64,000 bases of DNA from Gimesia benthica (GTDB taxonomy: Bacteria > Planctomycetota > Planctomycetia > Planctomycetales > Planctomycetaceae), in assembly GCF_009720525.1 (NCBI RefSeq), contig NZ_CP043930.1, positions 1,957,501 through 2,021,500 on the forward strand. The letters are read 5' to 3'. The notes under the pieces are model-generated. The model was not told where the DNA came from. It saw only the letters and a list, made by a program, of their open reading frames with translations, and made no database searches. Positions 42,221-54,570 of the stretch are shown here, in pieces. The position numbers and the translations under genes are program-made. Position 1 is the stretch's first letter; each line of letters starts with the position of its first letter.

Positions 42221-42249
42221 CACAGACCGTCAGGGAAAGACGGTCTGTG
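42221..42249. terminator. Bidirectional terminator overlapping a stop codon
   Basis: CACAGACCGTC and GACGGTCTGTG form a perfect 11-base stem with a 7-base loop. An outer AAGAAAC/GTTTCTT pair (42209-42215 and 42253-42259) extends it and gives T runs on both strands. The stop codon of the leftward gene (42230-42232) lies within the stem-loop, so its last codons are part of the hairpin. Confidence 0.85.
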
Positions 42250-45200
42250 CCCGTTTCTTAATCTCGGCATTCTCTGACATTTTCAGCTGCTGCTGAACTG
42301 AGGCATCCACCAGTTCGGCAGCCAGCTCTTTTTTCTCCAGCGCCTGCAGCAGCATCAACGTGCGGACCTCTGTTCTGACGAGAGCCTCGACCGCAAGCTT
42401 CCGGTTCCGCGGAGTCAATTTCGGCAGCGCGGTGATCAGATCCTGAGCCGCTTCCGGGGTATTGATGTCGCCCAGCCCACTGACGGCTCCCATCTGCAAT
42501 TCGGCCTGCTTCGCATCCATCAGGTAACGTTTCAACTGCTGCTGACATTTCTCGTAGTCGAGCATGGCCACCATGCGCAGTGCATCATAGCGGGTACCCG
42601 ATTTGATTTTGGGATCATCGGCCATCTTGACTGCAGCATGCAGCGACTGCTTCCAGCGAACTTCCAGCGGAGGAGTGGCTTTGAGAATGTTTTCGATTTT
42701 CGTTCGTGGCCAGTCGCCGGCGATGGTGATCCCGTTGATCACACCACCGCCTATCACCACGGCCTGCCAGCACTCCAGCGACTGTCCGAAGTCCGGCAGT
42801 GAAGCAGCCAGCAAGCGATGAAGTTCATCCGCCTGATTTCGTTTTCCGGCAGCAATCGCCTGTCTCCAGATATCAGGAATGTTGCGATATTCATCGGGTG
42901 TACCGACTTTAACATCCGCCACCAGAGACTTGATTCGGGCCACCGGATCGACTTCAGGAGCAGCCTGTTCTGCAGCGCCGGGTGTAACGGATACCGCCTG
43001 ATGCTGATCGCTGGTAGCGGTACTGGCCAGCGAGATTTCCGAAAGAAACAGCCAGCGACCGGCACTTTGAAAATCAATGCGTACAAACCGTCCCCGTTGT
43101 TCCGGGAACGTGATTTCAATCATGCGTCGATCAATTTCATACAGCCCCAGTCCATCCGGGTGGTTATCGAATTCCGAAAACTGTACCGGATTACCAAACT
43201 CACGCCCGTTGTTGCTGAAGGAAACCCGCACTGATCGCGGAGCATGAATTGATCCCGGTTCATGATTGACGCCATACACGATCCGCAATGACTGCAGAGG
43301 CATCTTCTTCCCCAGATCCAGTTCAATTCGCGGCTGGGGGTGCTCGCCAGTGAAGCGGAACCCGACCCATTGGCCGTCATTGAATTTGGGAGTTCCGTTC
43401 ATCCGATCGACCAGCTTCGGCTTCTGTGCATCATCGGGATAACTGGCATCCGGAGTCACCGCTCCCGCGTACTTGTAGGTCACGGGGGCACTGTGTTCCT
43501 GGAGATACACAATCAGATCCGCCATCGCTGCGGGAGGAATTTCCCGTTCCAGCCCCTCGGGCATGAGTGACTTACCCGAATTGATCAACTCGTCAATCTG
43601 GGCTCTCAGAATCGTCAGCACTTTTCCCTGCTGCGCTTTCAGCGTGATACTGTTGCTCTGTTCGGAAACCAGAATCCCCGTATTAAGTTTTCCATCTTCC
43701 GTTACCGCCAGATAGGAAGCATAACGACCATCGACGGCTTTATTCGGATCCAGAATTGAAGTCAGCAAAAATGACTTGGATTGATCCGTCAGTGCTGCCA
43801 GGTCAGGACCGACCACATGTCCTTTGCCATCCAGGCGATGACAGCTGGCACACTGCTTCTCAAAGACCTGCCGCCCTCGTTCCAGGTTCCCCTGTTTCAG
43901 ATCAACCGACTGATACTGCTTCAGTACCTGTTCGCGACTGGCACTGCTGGCCGCGGAAAACAGTTTCTGCGCGTGCTCTTTAATCTTGGAATTCTTATGC
44001 TCGAGCAATCGCTGTTGATTCGTCAGATCAATCTGGGCAGGTTGCACCTGCTTCTGTTCAACCTGTTTCAGCAGTGCCTGAGTCGTCGATTCCCGCAGGA
44101 GTAACTGATTCAGAACTTCTGCCTGAATAGAAGGCGTGAACTGCTTCCAGTTTTCAAACACCAGCTCCAGTGCCTCTGGATTCTGGGTGGCGATCAGGTT
44201 TCTCAATGCAGCAATCTGCAGCTTCAATGGTGTCTGGGGAGAGAGCAGATCGGCAACAAAATCGAGGTCCTTCTGATTCTGTTTCAGGCTTAATAAAAAC
44301 TCCAGGGAGGTCACCCGTTCTTCCGGGGACTGATCGACATCAGATACCAGCTCACGGGCACGCGGACTCAAAGCCGAGATCTGTTCCTGAAATACATCCG
44401 AATGGCCCTGCTGTTTCACCTGAGGCGACTGCAGTAACTGAGCAAGCAAGTTCCATTCCCAACTCGGAATCTGCTGACTTTCGGCAGCATGCGCAGTCAG
44501 ATGGACAGCCAGGTCATTCAACACCTTGGGCTGCTTCGAAGCGATTGCCATATCGGTCAGTGCATTAAGCACCGGCAGCATCTTCGGATTGGCTGTCACC
44601 TGAGGCAAAAGTGATGCGATTGCGGATGCCAGTCGGCTTGGTTCAAAACTCGTCAGTACTGCAGAGCGAATATAAACACTGTCGGCATGCTGCTGCATCA
44701 ATTTCAATAACGCTGCCGTCGCGGCATCGCCTTTTAAATCACCAAGAGAGTAAGCCAGTTGCAGAATCACAGACGGATCCTGTTCCTGCTTTGCCTGTGC
44801 CAAGACCGCATCTGCCAGTGGAGACGATTCATTCAAAAATGGTTCCGACAGTCGAATCGCTTCGCGTCGGACTCCCGGATGAGCATCGTTAATCCGCGGT
44901 TGTAACAATTCCGGATCAAGTCCCTGTAACGCATCCAGTGTGCACAATGCCTGCAGGCGTGAGGCGGGGAATTCGGCCTCTGCTGCGATCTGTTTCAAGA
45001 CTGGAACAGCACTCTGATCGCCGCGTAAGCGAAGTTCCTGCTGCACCATATCACGCAGAGTACCATTCTTACTTTCCATCAACCCTGCCACTTTCGCAGC
45101 ACTGAGTCGTTTCAGATCCGGAATGGACTTGAGCTGTTGTCCCTTACGCGTCACACGATAGATCCTCCCCCGCGTCTCCCCCGCGCGGACATTCAGTTTC

Positions 45201-47662
45201 TGTACGGACTCCGGGGAAAGAAATTTGGGATGCTCAATCAGATAACGGTACATGTCGACGATGTATAGCGAGCCATCGGGAGCGGTTCTCATCTGAACGG
45301 GGCGAAACCAGTTATCGGTCGATGTCAGAAATTCACGTCCCTGCTCTTCTTTCGCCCGGTAGCCGGCGAATGTCACTCCCTCAGGTTTCAAGACGCGACG
45401 ATGCACCAACTGATTCACTGGTTCACAGACAAACGCATTTTCATAAAAGGGATCGCCCAGTGCGACATCGCGATAGAGCCCCAGTCCACAGGCAGACGTC
45501 GGTCGGCCGCGTTGTCCACTGAGGTGGAATTGAACCAGTTCCCCGACCGGATATAACTGACTGGCGTCATCACCGCGGGGCACGGCCACTTCAGCCGGCG
45601 GTGAAACCACATACGGATTTTTACGATAGTAAGCTTCATCCACGGGATAATGCACACACAGACTGCCATTCCGACAACCAAACCAGTCTCCCCAGTCATC
45701 GCGGACTCGCCCCTGCTGGGTTCGTCCACTGACCGGCTCCAGTTCTCCCGTCTCAGGATGAAAGCGAAAATCCCGATTGGTAACATTAACGGTCTGACCG
45801 TTGAAGGATTTGATGATCCCGCCAAAAAGCCCCCCGGAAGCATAGACCCAGTTATCCAGGCCCGGTGCCAGACTGTTGACTCGTGCCTGATAGTTGTGGG
45901 TTGCAAAACCGGTGAGCACCTTGCGGTTGATGTCTGCTTTCCCGTCGCCGTCGGTGTCTTCTGCATAAATCACATCGGGGGCAGTACAGACCAGCAACCC
46001 GTTTTTCCAGACCATCAGTCCGGTGGGAAACGGCAGCCCCTCCAGAAACACAGTTGATTTATCGTAGGTCCCGTCCTGATCGAGGTCTTCCAGAAATTTG
46101 ACCACGCCCCCCGGCTTGAGATTGCCGTCCATCCCCTGCGGATAGTCTCGCATTTCCACAACCCACAGTTTTCCATCCGGTCCGAACTCCACTGCCACCG
46201 GATCGACTACCAGCGGCTCGGCGGCCACCACATCGACCTGCAGGTCATCTGCGTAATTCATCCGGGAAATCGATTCTTCCGGAGTCAGTGGTCGTTTCCC
46301 ACCTGTTCGGCTGACATCTTCCGCAGGCTTAAAGTCAGCGGGAATTTGAGCGGCCACTGTCTTGAGAATTTTCCCTTCCAGTCCCGGTGCAAACGGACCC
46401 GGCTTGTCATACCAGACCATCGCATTCCGCCCTTCGTAGCCTCCTTCTTGCAGGACGCGTTCGGACGGAATGTAACAGGGAACATCATTCGCATAAGAAG
46501 AGACCCAGACTTTCTCTCCGTACTTACTCTTGATCGCCAGTGAGTAATCGACGACCACCTCTCCACCAAGAAACACCATTGCCAGGTCGTCGCCGAACAC
46601 CCAGGATTTCACCGGATAGTCGATCTCGTCAATTAAAGCCTCGCCCTGTGCCAGTCGTTTCAGATTTTTCTGAGCGTGGTAGCCCGTAATGCCAGGCTTT
46701 TGTGCCAGCGATTTCCACTCTTCCTCTGTCGGCAGAGTCGCCAACGGGAGTTTCACTTCCTGGCTGTGTGTGGTCAGGCTGCCGGTAATCGGTGTCAGAC
46801 TCGTCTTCAACCGCTGCTTGACACCATCGGCGAGCCCCCGCCCATTCACCCGGGCAGCTCCCTGATCGTCGCCACGGACTTTGGGATTCTGATCGGCTCC
46901 ACAACCAATGGCCACCATTGCCATGCACCCCGGATAATCGGTTTCGATCCCTTCGACAGCACACCCGGCCCAGTCCCCCGACATAAATGGGACCGGTCCT
47001 AATGTAGTACAGTGACAGGCATAGCTCACCAGAATCGCGCGACGCTTTCCCTCCGGACTTTTCACGACCAGAATCGGTACCTCGTAATCGACGGGCCCGG
47101 TGATCTGTCTGCGGTTTTTGGCAAAGGTGGCTGTTCCAGTTCCCCATTCCAGGTGTGCAGGACGGGAATCCTGAATCGCCTGCTTTGCAACCTCGGTCAA
47201 ATTCTCCACTAACTCCTGAGTATAGCGGGCAATCACTGCCTGCTCCTCTTTGGTCAGATCTTTCGTGAACAGGTTTGGCAACACATCAGTCAGCATGGGG
47301 GCGGAATGGGTGTGAGTCGAACAGATCACAACGCCGGATGGCGTCATTTCATATTTATCTTTCAGATTCGCGACAACCTGTTTCGTCACGAGAGCGGGAA
47401 CGCCACAGTTATCAACCGTGATCAGCACACGTGGCTTACCCTGTTGATCCTCAACAGCAACGGCACGTGCCCATAAATGCTGTTCCACCTGATTGATCAG
47501 CTTCGATCCACGAGCGGCGTATCCGCTTAAGGGGACCGGATACTCCGGAGTGATATCGACTTTGGCGATCCCTACTGAAAATGTTTTCGTTTTTTCAGCG
47601 TGAGTGATCGAAAAAGAAATACTGAAGACCACTGCCGTCGTTAAGAGGCGAAAGGCGTGCAT
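42230..47662 (-). CDS. Giant secreted fusion: neutral-ceramidase-like, PVC dehydrogenase, HEAT, haem c, discoidin-like
   Basis: An 1810-residue exported protein with a signal peptide ending near Thr-His-Ala-Glu (about 22). Residues about 28-440 match neutral/alkaline ceramidase (VGIAKVDITPEYPVPLSGYA, VVICSTHTHSAP with the zinc histidines). Residues about 467-830 are the PVC membrane-bound dehydrogenase type (FGPDGKLWVVEMRDYPQGMD, ASGGLFGG). HEAT-like repeats follow to about 1250. A haem-c domain has CASCH near 1270 (GRQVFEKQCASCHRLDGKGH); a discoidin-like domain lies at about 1440-1570; more HEAT-like repeats close the chain. It may hydrolyse an amide-linked lipid or sugar and oxidise a product, passing electrons to its own haem. 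A XylR-type regulator is divergent. Confidence 0.85.
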   Translation of the reverse strand: MHAFRLLTTAVVFSISFSITHAEKTKTFSVGIAKVDITPEYPVPLSGYAARGSKLINQVEQHLWARAVAVEDQQGKPRVLITVDNCGVPALVTKQVVANLKDKYEMTPSGVVICSTHTHSAPMLTDVLPNLFTKDLTKEEQAVIARYTQELVENLTEVAKQAIQDSRPAHLEWGTGTATFAKNRRQITGPVDYEVPILVVKSPEGKRRAILVSYACHCTTLGPVPFMSGDWAGCAVEGIETDYPGCMAMVAIGCGADQNPKVRGDDQGAARVNGRGLADGVKQRLKTSLTPITGSLTTHSQEVKLPLATLPTEEEWKSLAQKPGITGYHAQKNLKRLAQGEALIDEIDYPVKSWVFGDDLAMVFLGGEVVVDYSLAIKSKYGEKVWVSSYANDVPCYIPSERVLQEGGYEGRNAMVWYDKPGPFAPGLEGKILKTVAAQIPADFKPAEDVSRTGGKRPLTPEESISRMNYADDLQVDVVAAEPLVVDPVAVEFGPDGKLWVVEMRDYPQGMDGNLKPGGVVKFLEDLDQDGTYDKSTVFLEGLPFPTGLMVWKNGLLVCTAPDVIYAEDTDGDGKADINRKVLTGFATHNYQARVNSLAPGLDNWVYASGGLFGGIIKSFNGQTVNVTNRDFRFHPETGELEPVSGRTQQGRVRDDWGDWFGCRNGSLCVHYPVDEAYYRKNPYVVSPPAEVAVPRGDDASQLYPVGELVQFHLSGQRGRPTSACGLGLYRDVALGDPFYENAFVCEPVNQLVHRRVLKPEGVTFAGYRAKEEQGREFLTSTDNWFRPVQMRTAPDGSLYIVDMYRYLIEHPKFLSPESVQKLNVRAGETRGRIYRVTRKGQQLKSIPDLKRLSAAKVAGLMESKNGTLRDMVQQELRLRGDQSAVPVLKQIAAEAEFPASRLQALCTLDALQGLDPELLQPRINDAHPGVRREAIRLSEPFLNESSPLADAVLAQAKQEQDPSVILQLAYSLGDLKGDAATAALLKLMQQHADSVYIRSAVLTSFEPSRLASAIASLLPQVTANPKMLPVLNALTDMAIASKQPKVLNDLAVHLTAHAAESQQIPSWEWNLLAQLLQSPQVKQQGHSDVFQEQISALSPRARELVSDVDQSPEERVTSLEFLLSLKQNQKDLDFVADLLSPQTPLKLQIAALRNLIATQNPEALELVFENWKQFTPSIQAEVLNQLLLRESTTQALLKQVEQKQVQPAQIDLTNQQRLLEHKNSKIKEHAQKLFSAASSASREQVLKQYQSVDLKQGNLERGRQVFEKQCASCHRLDGKGHVVGPDLAALTDQSKSFLLTSILDPNKAVDGRYASYLAVTEDGKLNTGILVSEQSNSITLKAQQGKVLTILRAQIDELINSGKSLMPEGLEREIPPAAMADLIVYLQEHSAPVTYKYAGAVTPDASYPDDAQKPKLVDRMNGTPKFNDGQWVGFRFTGEHPQPRIELDLGKKMPLQSLRIVYGVNHEPGSIHAPRSVRVSFSNNGREFGNPVQFSEFDNHPDGLGLYEIDRRMIEITFPEQRGRFVRIDFQSAGRWLFLSEISLASTATSDQHQAVSVTPGAAEQAAPEVDPVARIKSLVADVKVGTPDEYRNIPDIWRQAIAAGKRNQADELHRLLAASLPDFGQSLECWQAVVIGGGVINGITIAGDWPRTKIENILKATPPLEVRWKQSLHAAVKMADDPKIKSGTRYDALRMVAMLDYEKCQQQLKRYLMDAKQAELQMGAVSGLGDINTPEAAQDLITALPKLTPRNRKLAVEALVRTEVRTLMLLQALEKKELAAELVDASVQQQLKMSENAEIKKRAQTVFP

Positions 47663-49670: not shown

Positions 49671-50168
49671 AATTCAAATGACCTGCTTTGCAGTTCGTGG
49701 ATTTAAGCGGCCGTCACTATCCAGGCAATGTCAAATCTCCTGAATTAACATTCGAGCCTCGCCAGATTTTTTCTCACATCTCGAAACGGTCCTCCCCCCT
49801 AAACAATGCGTGAGTCAGGAGTTCCGTACTTACTAAGCACGCTATGCATAGCCGATGCCTGCACAAGTTTTGACTTTTTTGCCAATAATCTGAATTCTCT
49901 GAATCAGATCTCTTTTTTAAAGGTAGTTATATTATCACGGGGAAGGTATGCGCCAGTTCTGGCGATCATATTCAGAGATTTTGATGAACTCCAGATAATA
50001 CCGGATTGTCTGATTACTACTGGATAATTTTATTCCATTCCTTAAGCAGTTTGAGTACATTGAATAATGTATCTCTGATACATCTGCCTTCCTGAACTTA
50101 GTTGACTCCCTGCAATAACCAATCGATTGCAATCAGCGTTTGACCACTGTTATTGCTGAGGTTGTAAG
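49671..50168. other. Intergenic spacer before the sigma-factor gene
   Basis: About 500 AT-richer bases. It carries the left copy of a 12-base inverted repeat (49829-49840) and the leader of the sigma-factor gene. No tRNA, RNA hairpin or clear promoter was identified; TTGACT at 49870-49875 has no matching -10 box. Confidence 0.4.
49829..49840 (+). repeat. Left copy of a 12-base inverted repeat bracketing the sigma/kinase/GT genes
   Basis: CTTACTAAGCAC here is the exact reverse complement of GTGCTTAGTAAG at 54666-54677. The core CTTACTAAG is itself palindromic, so only the CAC/GTG ends fix the orientation. Flanks differ beyond the 12 bases. Confidence 0.55.
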
Positions 50169-50807
50169 GTGATCGGTAAGGAACGCCATCAAATGAACTA
50201 CGGCACTGAATGGCCTTCGACACATATAACGCTGCTGAACCGTGTCCGCCTGCATACGGATGCGGAGGCGTGGCGGGAGTTTGTAAAAATCTACGGCCCC
50301 CTGATCTACAATTACTGCCGAAAAAAACGGCTGAATGACGCCGATGCCGAGGATGTCTGCCAGGAAGTCTTTCGCCAGATCAGCACATCCCTGAACTCAT
50401 TTGAGTACAACAGAAAGCTGGGCCGTTTTCGTTCCTGGCTGGGTACCGTCACCTACCACGAAATCTGCCGGTTCTGGAAAAAGAACCAGCGGGTTCAACA
50501 CCAGACGGGAAAAAGCGAACTGGAAGAGTTTATCAACAAACACCCGGGAGAAATCGATGGTGTCTGGTCTGATGAATTCTGCAGTCATATCTATGAAACC
50601 GCATTGCAGACAATCCGCCCGCAATTTGATGAAAAAACCTGGCGCGCGTTTGAACTCACCTGGATTCAGGATTCCCCTACCAAAGCAGCGGCGGTAGAAT
50701 TGGACGTTGATCCGAACTGGATTTACAAAGCCAAGTTCCTGGTTCAACAGAAACTGAAAGAGGAAATCAAACGTCTTTCCTTTGACAGCGTCGTATTCCA
50801 GAAGTAA
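50169..50807 (+). CDS. ECF-type RNA polymerase sigma factor
   Basis: The protein of 212 residues has sigma region 2 (WREFVKIYGPLIYNYCRKKRLNDADAED then VCQEVFRQI) and a -10 recognition part with FRSWLGTVTYHEICRFWKK. Region 4 is near 155-205 (FELTWIQDSPTKAAAVELDVD). This is the form commonly seen in planctomycete ECF groups. It directs polymerase to its own set of promoters. The GTG at 50169 follows GAGG at 7 bases; the ATG at 50193, with AAGGA, is an alternative. The next gene, 19 bases on, encodes a kinase with an anti-sigma-like zinc motif that should control it. Confidence 0.92.
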   Translation: MIGKERHQMNYGTEWPSTHITLLNRVRLHTDAEAWREFVKIYGPLIYNYCRKKRLNDADAEDVCQEVFRQISTSLNSFEYNRKLGRFRSWLGTVTYHEICRFWKKNQRVQHQTGKSELEEFINKHPGEIDGVWSDEFCSHIYETALQTIRPQFDEKTWRAFELTWIQDSPTKAAAVELDVDPNWIYKAKFLVQQKLKEEIKRLSFDSVVFQK

Positions 50808-50825
50808 GCAGATCTTGAGTTCTTC

Positions 50826-52940
50826 ATGGAAAATTGCCTCTCGGATAATCAAATCCACCAATATCTGGTACATGACCTGAATGGCGAAGATTTACAGCGC
50901 TATTCTGAGCACCTCAATGAGTGCGGCAGTTGCCAGAAACGAATTGAGATCCAGTCAGAAGACGATGAGCTCAAAGTCTGGCATAACCGTCATCGGCAAC
51001 AGACCCTGGATGAGCCTGTAGAGAAGCACGCTTTTACCGACGATCGGATCGACAAACTTTTTCGCTCCACATTTTCTTCCATCCACAACCCCGGCACCTC
51101 CGATAATAAGACAGCCGAACAATCGGCTGACATCGCAGCCTCTACATCGACACTGCCCGATGAAGCCCCCATCAGAACCATTGGGAATTACCATCTCATT
51201 GAACAGATTGGGAAAGGAGGCATGGGAGCCGTCTACCGTGCCACACATTCACATCTGAAAAAACAGGTCGTTGTGAAACTGATCCTGAATAATCGCGTCG
51301 ATGACGAGACTCAGGTTCAACGGTTTTACCGGGAAATGGAAGTAATCGGCAGCCTGGATCATGCCAACATTGTCAAAGCTACCGATGCAGGAGAGATCGA
51401 CGGGACCTGCTTTCTGGTGATGGAATACCTGGACGGCCACGATGTCAAATCCATCCTGAATGCGGAAAAAAAGATCCCTCTCTCATCCGCTTGTTACATC
51501 CTGAGACAGGTGGCAAATGGCCTGCAGTACATCCACAACCATCAGTTAATCCACAGGGACATCAAACCCTCCAACCTGTTTCTGACCACCGACGGGCAGG
51601 TCAAGATTCTTGACCTCGGACTGGCCGGATTGAAACAGGGGGAATGCAGCGACCTGACCGATAGTAACTGCATTATGGGCAGCGTCTATTACATGGCCCC
51701 GGAGCAGGCACAAAACGTCAAAAACATTGACCAGCGCGCAGACATTTACAGTCTGGGCTGCGCTTTCTATCAGATGCTCACTGGCCGGCCCCCATTCAAG
51801 AAGACATCGCAACTCGAAACGATTATCGCGCATCGCGAGACACCACCGCCACATCTGCGAGTTCCCATTCCGAACATCCCCCCTGAAATTGAAGATCTTT
51901 TTCAGTCCATGATGAAAAAAGATCCGGAAGAACGGATTCAGACTATGGCAGAAGTTGTGGAGATCCTCGACCACTTTCTGTATCAGCGATCGGAGCTACC
52001 ACTCAGCGAATCTTCGGAAACCCGGTTCACCGAGTCTCAGGAACTGAAACAATTATGTACGAACGCAAGGCTCTCCCCTGCAATCGAAGCACTGCAACAA
52101 ACGGCGACGACTCAATACAGTCAGTTGGGAGAATCCGCCCCTCTCCGAAAGAGAATGGTCAGTTCATCTATTTTCATCGCCTGTGCATTGGGAATGGCTG
52201 GTGCGATGATCTGGTTGAATAATCCCAAAATAGCAGACAACCAAACCATACAAACAGCCGGTATATCTACAGGGATTCAGTCCGTTATCAATCCGGAACT
52301 GGAAAGAAAAGCTGCAGTCTGGTTCCTCAAACATCGCTGCGAGCTACTGATCTCAGGTGAAAATACCCCCATCAGTCAAGTTGAATCGCTCCCTGATCGT
52401 GATTTTTCCATCATAGGAATTGATTTCAAACCCCAGCCCATCACTCCCGAACTGCTGGCTCCTCTCAAAAATCTCTCAAGACTCGAGGCACTCAATATGT
52501 ATGACTGCCGGATCACTACCGGCTCACTACAGTCACTGGAAAATATGGGCTCTCTCTTGAAACTGGACCTGCATAATACAGGAATTACTGATGCTGACCT
52601 GGCAGTCGTCAGCAGCCTGAAAAATCTAACCAATCTCTCAATTCATAAAAATCCGAAATTAACTGATCAGGGATTACAACATCTCAGTGCCCTGCAGAAC
52701 CTGGAATCAGTCAATCTGGCACGCTTAAATACTTCCGACAAAGGTCTGCAGTTTCTGCAAACAAATCCCGCTCTGAACTGGTTGAACCTGGAAGACACCA
52801 AAACCTCTGACGCCTCAGTCCCTGCCCTCAAAACGCTCCAAAGCATGGATAAGCTATACCTGAAAAATTCCAATGTTACAGAACAGGGTTTTCAGGAAAT
52901 AAAAAACAGTCTGCAAAATGCAAGAGTTCTTTCATATTGA
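50826..52940 (+). CDS. Ser/Thr kinase with anti-sigma-like zinc motif and leucine-rich repeats
   Basis: This 704-residue protein has four parts. Residues 1-45 carry H29-x3-C33-x2-C36, the zinc-binding anti-sigma (ZAS) signature. The kinase lies at about 122-390: glycine loop IGKGGMGAVYRA, VVVKL lysine, HRDIKPSNLF catalytic loop, LDLGLAG and APEQ. A membrane helix follows near 445-463. The outside part (about 480-700) has leucine-rich repeats (LEALNMYDCRI, LLKLDLHNTGITDADL, LTNLSIHKNPKLTDQGLQHL). An outside ligand could alter the kinase and release the sigma factor encoded upstream. Kinase and ZAS assignments are read directly; the mechanism is inference. Confidence 0.92.
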   Translation: MENCLSDNQIHQYLVHDLNGEDLQRYSEHLNECGSCQKRIEIQSEDDELKVWHNRHRQQTLDEPVEKHAFTDDRIDKLFRSTFSSIHNPGTSDNKTAEQSADIAASTSTLPDEAPIRTIGNYHLIEQIGKGGMGAVYRATHSHLKKQVVVKLILNNRVDDETQVQRFYREMEVIGSLDHANIVKATDAGEIDGTCFLVMEYLDGHDVKSILNAEKKIPLSSACYILRQVANGLQYIHNHQLIHRDIKPSNLFLTTDGQVKILDLGLAGLKQGECSDLTDSNCIMGSVYYMAPEQAQNVKNIDQRADIYSLGCAFYQMLTGRPPFKKTSQLETIIAHRETPPPHLRVPIPNIPPEIEDLFQSMMKKDPEERIQTMAEVVEILDHFLYQRSELPLSESSETRFTESQELKQLCTNARLSPAIEALQQTATTQYSQLGESAPLRKRMVSSSIFIACALGMAGAMIWLNNPKIADNQTIQTAGISTGIQSVINPELERKAAVWFLKHRCELLISGENTPISQVESLPDRDFSIIGIDFKPQPITPELLAPLKNLSRLEALNMYDCRITTGSLQSLENMGSLLKLDLHNTGITDADLAVVSSLKNLTNLSIHKNPKLTDQGLQHLSALQNLESVNLARLNTSDKGLQFLQTNPALNWLNLEDTKTSDASVPALKTLQSMDKLYLKNSNVTEQGFQEIKNSLQNARVLSY

Positions 52941-53109: not shown

Positions 53110-54570
53110 ATGGTAGGTAATGCAGTCTGGCCAAAATCTGCGCGCGTAGAACGATTGGAAAATCAGACAAAGTTCCAGGCAGATCCCGAACAGAGTCTGG
53201 TCAGCATCGTAATTGCAGCGCGGAACAATGGACCATTTCTGGCAGAAGCAATTGAGTCTGCATTAAATCAAAGTGTGGATTGTGAAGTCATCTATGTTGA
53301 CGACTGCAGTTTTGACAACTCCCTCATAATTGCCGGTCAATACCAGGATCGGGGGCTACAGGTGATTCGCTCGCAGTTTCACCGGGGGGTTTGTGAAGCA
53401 CGGAATCGCGGTGCCTCATTTGCCAAAGGAGATTATCTGTTATTCCTGGACGGTGATGACGTTCTGCAGGCAGACTATGTCCAGAAGCATCTGGACGCCA
53501 TCACTCCCGAGACTCCCTTCATATATGGTTCTGCCGAAGCTTTTGGCGCTTTTACAACATTCTGGGATGCGCCCGAATGGGACGACGGACGCCTGTGGTT
53601 ACGAAATTTTGTGAACACCTCTGCTTTGTGGAATCGCCACGCGTTCGAAACCGCCGGCGGATGGCGTAACAAAATCAATACCATGTGGGACTGGGACCTG
53701 GCCCTCCGCGGTGCGCGCCTGGGTACACCAGCGAAAAGTCAGGCTGTGCTGCTCTACCGCCAACACCCCGGATCCTGGTCTGCCAACATTCAAACCAAAA
53801 AAGAGGAACGCCAGGAATCGATGCTCCCCCGTATAAGACAGATCTGCACCCGTCTCAGTGTAGGATCGATCATCAGCGGCCGCCTGGTCGACTACTTTCC
53901 CCAGTGGATGTCAGCGGTTGCTCAGGCGGTCAAACTGATCAATACACAGGAACCGGTTGAACTGGTTCTACTGGACAACTCCAATAACCCACGCACACTC
54001 GAACAAATCAGAAGAGAAGCCTACCGCTATCTCAATATTTTTGAGTCAATCAGAGTCGTGCCACATCCGGTTAAATATCACCACACGACTGAGCGTGACA
54101 GAAGAAACAAGGTGGCCCAGTTCATGGCCCATGCCTGCAATCGACTCAAGGCAGAAATGAAAGGTGAGATCCACTGGATCATTGAAGATGATATTCTGGT
54201 CCCCCTCGAAGCAGGAAAAGAGCTAACTGAAAATCTGATGACTGGCTGGGTCCCGCCGAATGCAGTCTCAGGCTGTTACCGCAGTCGGCATGTCGAGTCA
54301 CAGTTTGTCGGCGGCTATTTTGATGAGGAACATGTTGTCAAAGCTTTTAAAGAACTGGGCGACAAAATCACGTCGGTCGACTATTGTGGTACAGGTTGCC
54401 TCATGTACTGGAAAGATCGCACGCCTAAATACTGGCGTAGCCACTACCGAGATTCGCCTGCCCATGACTGGGCCTGGTGCGCGCAGCTCAAGCGTGAAAA
54501 TGGTGAAATATTGATGCTCCCCTCAGTGCACTGCGGACACGTTCAGACGCCGGAGAACATTCTCTATTGA
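53110..54570 (+). CDS. Double GT-A glycosyltransferase
   Basis: A 486-residue protein with two GT-A-like halves. The first (about 28-240) is a classical GT2: VSIVIAARNNGPFLAEAIESA, the D-D pair in VIYVDDCS and the metal motif D114-G-D-D117. The second (about 255-486) has its own strand order with LVLLDNSNNPRTLEQI and an E-D-D metal motif at 359-361 (IIEDDILVPL), then a HDWAWC-type active loop. The protein probably builds a surface glycan with two sugar transfers. AAAGGG precedes the ATG. It follows the sigma/kinase pair by 169 bases and may be among its targets. Confidence 0.85.
   Translation: MVGNAVWPKSARVERLENQTKFQADPEQSLVSIVIAARNNGPFLAEAIESALNQSVDCEVIYVDDCSFDNSLIIAGQYQDRGLQVIRSQFHRGVCEARNRGASFAKGDYLLFLDGDDVLQADYVQKHLDAITPETPFIYGSAEAFGAFTTFWDAPEWDDGRLWLRNFVNTSALWNRHAFETAGGWRNKINTMWDWDLALRGARLGTPAKSQAVLLYRQHPGSWSANIQTKKEERQESMLPRIRQICTRLSVGSIISGRLVDYFPQWMSAVAQAVKLINTQEPVELVLLDNSNNPRTLEQIRREAYRYLNIFESIRVVPHPVKYHHTTERDRRNKVAQFMAHACNRLKAEMKGEIHWIIEDDILVPLEAGKELTENLMTGWVPPNAVSGCYRSRHVESQFVGGYFDEEHVVKAFKELGDKITSVDYCGTGCLMYWKDRTPKYWRSHYRDSPAHDWAWCAQLKRENGEILMLPSVHCGHVQTPENILY

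Follow-up and report, generated by a model that had tools for sequence, protein, structure and literature searches.

A planctomycete receptor kinase with a putative zinc anti-sigma domain, encoded beside an ECF sigma factor

The sigma factor and receptor kinase gene pair

We analyzed a 64,000-nucleotide stretch of Gimesia benthica DNA (contig NZ_CP043930.1, positions 1,957,501 to 2,021,500; hereafter the window), in which a gene for an extracytoplasmic function (ECF) sigma factor is followed, after a gap of 18 bases, by a gene for a Hanks-type receptor kinase. Both open reading frames (ORFs) were confirmed at their positions (Table 1). Orthologues were searched for in 40 genomes, 17 of them from the genus (own genome included). 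Within the genus, 12 genomes (again with our own) carry a full-length orthologue of the kinase, one carries a truncated copy that retains the N-terminus (L013), and one a piece without the N-terminus (L014); three of the 17 gave no orthologue-strength match, and one of those genomes is just 74% complete. The ECF gene lies directly upstream of the kinase gene in all 13 orthologues that have an N-terminus.

The ECF protein matches Sigma70_r2 (E = 3.4e-11), the sole Pfam family above cut-off, and the sigma70-ECF model TIGR02937 (63.9 bits, cut-off 42.9; residues 33-199 of the 212-aa form), through which sigma2 and sigma4 are recognized without sigma3, the arrangement of an ECF sigma factor. An internal ATG aligns with the orthologue N-termini, MNY in 12 and MKY in one, in all 13 cases, so translation probably starts there.

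From the N-terminus onwards, the kinase comprises a zinc anti-sigma motif, a Hanks-type kinase domain, one membrane helix and leucine-rich repeats (LRRs). The kinase core is complete by sequence, with GKGGMG at 129, K151, E170, HRDIKPSN at 243, DLG (where DFG is usual) at 263 and APE at 291. One helix was found in each of the 12 full-length orthologues (hydropathy at least 1.3), and because this helix is single, the LRRs presumably lie outside. LRR_4 scored 30.5 bits on the C-terminal part alone (cut-off 27) and 25.8 bits on the whole protein. AlphaFold modeled this LRR part (residues 491-704) with a predicted local distance difference test score (pLDDT) of 87-94; the full-length model is poor outside it (mean pLDDT 57). 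A full catalytic core, a membrane helix and a presumed outer domain, as expected of a Hanks-type receptor kinase, can hence be recognized at the sequence level. An earlier note, made from the DNA letters alone, had described the same chain, and its zinc motif, complete kinase core, single membrane helix and LRRs were all borne out, with the outside position of the repeats read from the single helix.

Table 1. Features of the sigma factor/kinase locus, in window positions.
Feature	Positions	Strand	Details
Conserved bipartite element, candidate promoter	50031..50059	+	Upstream of ECF gene
ECF sigma factor gene	50169..50807	+	GTG start, 212 aa; probable conserved start ATG 50193 (204 aa)
Acidic DAED motif, sigma region 2.2	50343..50354	+	Residues 51-54 of 204-aa form
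Receptor kinase gene	50826..52940	+	ATG start, 704 aa
Zinc anti-sigma-like domain	50826..50954	+	Residues 1-43; likely ligands C4, H29, C33, C36
Predicted helix, candidate helix 4 of class I anti-sigma domain	50964..51008	+	Residues 47-61; block pLDDT about 67-73
Predicted helix, candidate phosphorylation cluster	51039..51086	+	Residues 72-87, with S81, T82, S84, S85; block pLDDT 64-80
Hanks-type kinase domain	51189..51947	+	Residues 122-374; Pkinase E = 2e-58
Membrane helix	52155..52211	+	Residues 444-462; only hydrophobic helix
Leucine-rich repeats, presumed outside	52458..52925	+	About residues 545-700; LRR_4 and model
Family 2 glycosyltransferase	53110-54570		Directly downstream of kinase in 12/12 orthologous loci read

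The kinase N-terminus and its relation to solved anti-sigma factors

The sequence H29-x3-C33-x2-C36 stands exactly in the kinase N-terminus. We noted C4 as a fourth likely zinc ligand, missing from the ligands listed earlier; we assume by analogy that it binds zinc, on the four-ligand scheme of RsrA and ChrR. All four residues are retained in the 13 genus orthologues with an N-terminus, and loss of the zinc motif in homologues, which the earlier note had named as an outcome that would speak against its proposal, was therefore not seen. Shuffling residues 1-117 200,000 times produced HxxxCxxC in 590 cases. The motif together with an upstream C or H was present in 16 of 126 kinase N-termini, taken with duplicates from our own genome and the public sample described below, against 0.054 expected by shuffling.

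A profile built from 33 motif-bearing kinase N-termini was searched against all PDB sequences and matched 12 of them at an E-value of 10 or better. Five matches fell below 0.001, namely ChrR (2q1z, 5e-7; 2z2s, 5.5e-7), DdvA (8rlz, 5.4e-7), a CHAT-domain protein (8rot, 1.4e-5) and RslA (3hug, 2e-4); RsiW (5wuq, 0.004) and RsrA (5frf, 0.12) matched more weakly, and the remaining five were unrelated, at 0.11 or worse. Pfam zf-HC2 recognizes 28 of the 33 profile rows at E = 0.1 or better.

Residues 1-110 were modeled with helices at 7-14, 20-32, 34-43, 47-61 and 72-87, the last two at moderate confidence; pLDDT was ~81-91 over the first 40 residues, with a mean of 70.7. In class I anti-sigma domains, helix 4 is the one in contact with sigma2. 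S81, T82, S84 and S85, in the predicted helix 72-87, are invariant in the 12 full-length orthologues and also present in the truncated L013. When this model was compared with the PDB by Foldseek, chains of ChrR, RsiW or RslA made up 14 of the 19 matches, including the first seven, all at E-values of 0.58 or worse. Structural re-alignment, which took in Foldseek's own matches only, gave Z = 6.8 for ChrR (52 residues at 3.3 Å) and 5.2 for RslA, where values below 8 can reflect merely a shared helical arrangement. The predicted fold is closest to those of ChrR and RslA, though not conclusively and at low match significance. The sequence comparison and, more weakly, the predicted fold agree on the anti-sigma relation.

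Hx3Cx2C over predicted helices 2 and 3, a likely N-terminal fourth ligand and a profile-level relation to solved members are marks of class I zinc anti-sigma factors, and all were found here. With ChrR, RslA, RsiW and RsrA the kinase N-terminus shares the placement of this motif and a gene beside an ECF gene, and it is predicted to form a three-helix N-terminal bundle like theirs; the upstream fourth ligand of the class has its likely counterpart in C4. Unlike in these proteins, the zinc domain here shares its chain with a kinase, one membrane helix and LRRs. The idea of the earlier note that sensor, kinase and anti-sigma factor are joined in one protein beside its ECF partner is supported by the PDB profile, ligand conservation and the conserved ECF neighbour, and more weakly by the fold.

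Zinc-motif kinases in other loci and the surroundings of the gene pair

In our own genome (8.03 Mb; 44 kinase rows read, one a duplicate), an ECF gene lies upstream of all four motif-bearing kinases vs 10 of 40 others (p = 0.007). A public sample was drawn with a kinase query made from motif-bearing kinases, using the best 80 of at least 589 stretches; 87 of its 98 kinases were counted, after 11 with less than 700 bases upstream had been dropped (among them motif-bearing L078, L099 and L109, and ECF-linked L134). Here, ECF genes were found upstream of 7 of 9 motif-bearing kinases vs 3 of 78 others (p = 7e-7). Relatives among these rows are not independent, and the query for the public sample was itself drawn from motif-bearing kinases. 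The 12 motif-bearing kinases of the public sample come from planctomycetes or from genera and families that we place among them. A search from the ECF side covered 27 loci (39 rows, of which three were orthologues of our own locus and nine lacked a locus). A kinase gene came next in 12 of these, and 11 of the 12 kinases carried the motif, two being copies from our own genome and two near-identical.

A single membrane helix follows shortly behind the kinase domain in 20 of 21 additional motif-bearing kinases; the remaining one, L104, is cut by the end of its sequence. The outer parts vary. Of nine examined for them, L068 and L080 carry LRRs, L032 (with laminin G) and L064 an FGE-sulfatase domain, and L072 WD40 repeats; the outer parts of L035, L038, L077 and L090 were not recognized. 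The constant unit is the zinc domain with the kinase and the membrane helix, combined with varying outer sensors, and the zinc-motif kinase is a recurrent planctomycete design that mostly stands beside an ECF gene, not a one-off. The earlier note had called the chain unusual, which is only partly right: the pairing of zinc motif and kinase is not rare, and even LRR-bearing examples exist beyond the orthologues, one of them (L068) in the same genus.

In L037 (693-2084; G000, our own genome, about 1,515.7-1,517.1 kb), a 463-aa ORF matches both ECF and kinase profiles, an apparent ECF-kinase fusion without the HRD motif, and adjoins a further ECF-kinase pair that runs on the opposite strand. In L041 (G000, about 1,305.6 kb), a kinase is preceded by a partial ECF match with one in-frame TGA. 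Four ECF-linked kinases without the zinc motif, L063, L084, L075 and L024, resemble one another in an acidic helix ahead of the kinase domain (GECE/PECE-like, GEAE in L075), and their N-termini are perhaps zinc-less anti-sigma domains. A profile comparison of these N-termini gave a probability of 12 (E = 0.0024), and the four-row profile retrieved no anti-sigma factor from the PDB, its sole match being a designed protein.

In all 12 loci read, the gene pair stands between a MarR-type-like gene and a family 2 glycosyltransferase-like gene, families that were scanned in the window only. The bipartite element preceding the ECF gene aligns without gaps and at fixed spacing, with substitutions, in 13 of 13 orthologues; it is unlike the housekeeping-like promoter that stands before the glycosyltransferase gene and may be the sigma factor's own promoter. 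In eight genus genomes, allowing up to two mismatches, it gave 16 matches, seven of them at the orthologous locus (that of G016 being missing), and the reversed control gave two; our own genome had one other match, with two mismatches. No regulon was found with the element in these eight genomes at that threshold. The glycosyltransferase gene is preceded by a conserved TTGAC...ATACT, which looks housekeeping-like by comparison with the consensus. We do not claim this gene as a target of the sigma factor despite its adjacency in 12 of 12 loci, because its own upstream region looks like such a promoter. Further away on the minus strand (42230-47662), a single 1810-aa ORF encodes a long, multidomain-looking sequence with a CxxCH motif.

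Control of the sigma factor: a proposed mechanism and its alternatives

We propose, with a probability of roughly 60%, that the kinase is a one-protein unit in which the zinc domain sequesters the co-encoded ECF sigma factor, and kinase activation on an outside signal frees it. The kinase would span the membrane and expose its LRRs on the outside. Residues 1-43 and the helices that follow, on the cytoplasmic side, would bind zinc and act as a class I anti-sigma domain, binding and inhibiting the sigma factor and holding it close to the membrane. When the LRRs receive a signal, the kinase would become active and phosphorylate either its own anti-sigma region, with S81, T82, S84 and S85 as candidates, or the sigma factor; phosphorylation would then release the sigma factor, which may in turn activate its own gene pair. 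A related pathway is described for M. tuberculosis, where phosphorylation of the zinc anti-sigma factor RshA by PknB releases SigH (PMC8999054, PMC13147305). Zinc anti-sigma factor, ECF sigma factor and Ser/Thr kinase are there three separate proteins, whereas our locus joins the anti-sigma domain and the kinase in one chain.

Kinase-linked ECF sigma factors have been discussed as phosphorylation systems (PMC8999054, PMC8103513, PMC13147305). The PknT-EcfP and PknS-EcfK pairs of ECF43 resemble our pair in that a membrane Hanks-type kinase is encoded with an ECF sigma factor, and ECF43 sigma factors are described as lacking the acidic DAED motif and being activated by phosphorylation at that site, to which EcfK adds phosphorylation of the linker (PMC8999054, PMC13147305). 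Unlike them, our sigma factor and its orthologues keep DAED (8 of 13) or DSED (5 of 13), where ECF43 has uncharged residues with a phosphorylatable Thr, and our kinase has the zinc anti-sigma-like domain. Across the 13 orthologues, the stretch from sigma2 to sigma4 (residues 95-130) has five columns that are always acidic and none that is always Ser or Thr. Judged from these residues, both known ECF43 phospho-switch positions look pre-charged, so that the sigma factor seems already able to bind polymerase and to require holding back. Since DAED is kept, an anti-sigma domain that restrains the sigma factor is a better fit than activation of the EcfP type, and an EcfP-like switch is not favoured with DAED or DSED retained in 13 of 13. 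One review also allows that kinase-linked ECF sigma factors with DAED may work otherwise (PMC8999054). The same source places ECF59, ECF61, ECF62 and ECF217 beside Ser/Thr kinases, with planctomycete examples; compared by description only, these groups differ in being explained through phosphorylation and not through a kinase-borne anti-sigma domain.

It is unlikely, but the alternative that deserves most weight, that the zinc domain is a docking site only and that the kinase activates the sigma factor by direct phosphorylation, as PknT does EcfP. The complete kinase core suits this account, as do reviews that predict phospho-activation of kinase-linked ECF sigma factors (PMC8999054, PMC8103513) and the direct phosphorylation demonstrated for EcfP and EcfK (PMC8999054, PMC13147305). 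Fifteen ECF columns hold Ser or Thr throughout the 13 orthologues, and the Ser inside DSED in five of them, taken with a phosphorylated Ser in ECF59, leaves some room for it. Yet the acidic DAED/DSED motif and the acidic stretch between sigma2 and sigma4 mean that the switches described for ECF43 do not carry over directly. In this set, sigma factors without an acidic residue at the DAED site pair with kinases that lack the zinc motif: 4 of 17 (L036, L040, L059, L142) vs 0 of 26 linked to motif-bearing kinases, after removal of eight duplicate motif rows and L134 (motif cut), a small difference among related rows that makes the association suggestive only. Within L059 (1-3680), the ECF-linked kinase lacks the zinc histidine and its ECF partner reads IAQQ instead of DAED. 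If the zinc domain only docked the sigma factor, deletion of the kinase would silence the regulon, not switch it on.

We consider it improbable that the domain is instead a redox sensor of the RsrA type, from which oxidants would release zinc and thereby free the sigma factor or alter the kinase, giving the protein two inputs, redox inside and the LRRs outside. The solved relatives do include ChrR and, weakly, RsrA, and all four ligands are retained, but about half of the membrane-bound class I anti-sigma factors carry a zinc motif, which may be structural only (PMC7406223). Least probable of all is a leftover or unrelated zinc finger without a role in sigma control. Sub-threshold scores for the single protein and five motif-bearing kinases without a detected adjacent ECF gene would fit such a remnant, whereas ligand retention in 13 of 13, the linkage to ECF genes and PDB matches led by sigma-binding proteins speak against it.

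Several results weigh against sequestration by the zinc domain. On the whole kinase, zf-HC2 (cut-off 22.2 bits) scored 16.1 bits (E = 0.012), rising to 21.5 bits for residues 9-37 when residues 1-61 were scanned alone, and the RsrA model TIGR03988 scored 22.5 bits on residues 8-45 of that fragment (E = 9e-5; cut-off 62.5), so the single protein falls under both curated cut-offs. Because the 33 profile rows were picked by the motif, the motif on its own accounts for some of the PDB score. Every Foldseek E-value was 0.58 or worse, both Z-scores fell below 8, and residues 1-40 reached a pLDDT of only 40-56 in the full-length model (12 rows). A tree-based pair test of the link between motif and ECF gene, from which near-identical rows and rows with short domains or flanks had been dropped, was not significant (median p = 0.22); the raw table of the 160-row tree set (27/34 vs 16/126) is biased because it includes the ECF-first loci, and was not used as evidence. 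With the kinase domain taken into account, distances in the ECF and in the zinc domain were only weakly coupled (26 pairs, partial correlation 0.15, p = 0.037; ECF-kinase 0.48). Fifteen of the 27 ECF-first loci have no adjacent kinase, and no ECF gene was detected upstream of motif-bearing L017, L060, L065, L076 and L079 within the sequence available (at least 1.1 kb each). Outside our own family, DxxD is kept in 10 of 13 motif-linked sigma factors; L016 (GVSD), L035 (AEDE) and L072 (TAKD) lack it. Finally, kinase-regulated ECF sigma factors are said to have an uncharged motif, with a Ser phosphorylated in ECF59 (PMC8103513).

In the titles and abstract starts of top-ranked papers, we found no kinase with a zinc anti-sigma domain; the ECF classification, a 2012 planctomycete survey and supplements lay outside this coverage. 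No paper matched a literature search for zf-HC2 with Pkinase. In the text of a survey of class I anti-sigma factors, words that begin with 'kinase' occur twice, neither for a Ser/Thr kinase fusion (PMC7406223), and the word zinc is absent from the main text of a planctomycete kinase survey (PMC11032199).

A kinase with its own anti-sigma domain would be a concrete alternative to phospho-activation, distinguishable in that the regulon should come on, and not fall silent, when the kinase is lost. If sequestration by the zinc domain is correct, outside sensing, phosphorylation and sigma restraint would be joined in one chain. More tentatively, and with somewhat less than even odds in our view, Planctomycetota may harbour a widespread class of self-releasing anti-sigma kinases, single membrane proteins in which the sigma-holding zinc region would be phosphorylated by its own kinase in response to an outside signal, letting go of the sigma factor, and in which the outer sensors would be interchangeable.

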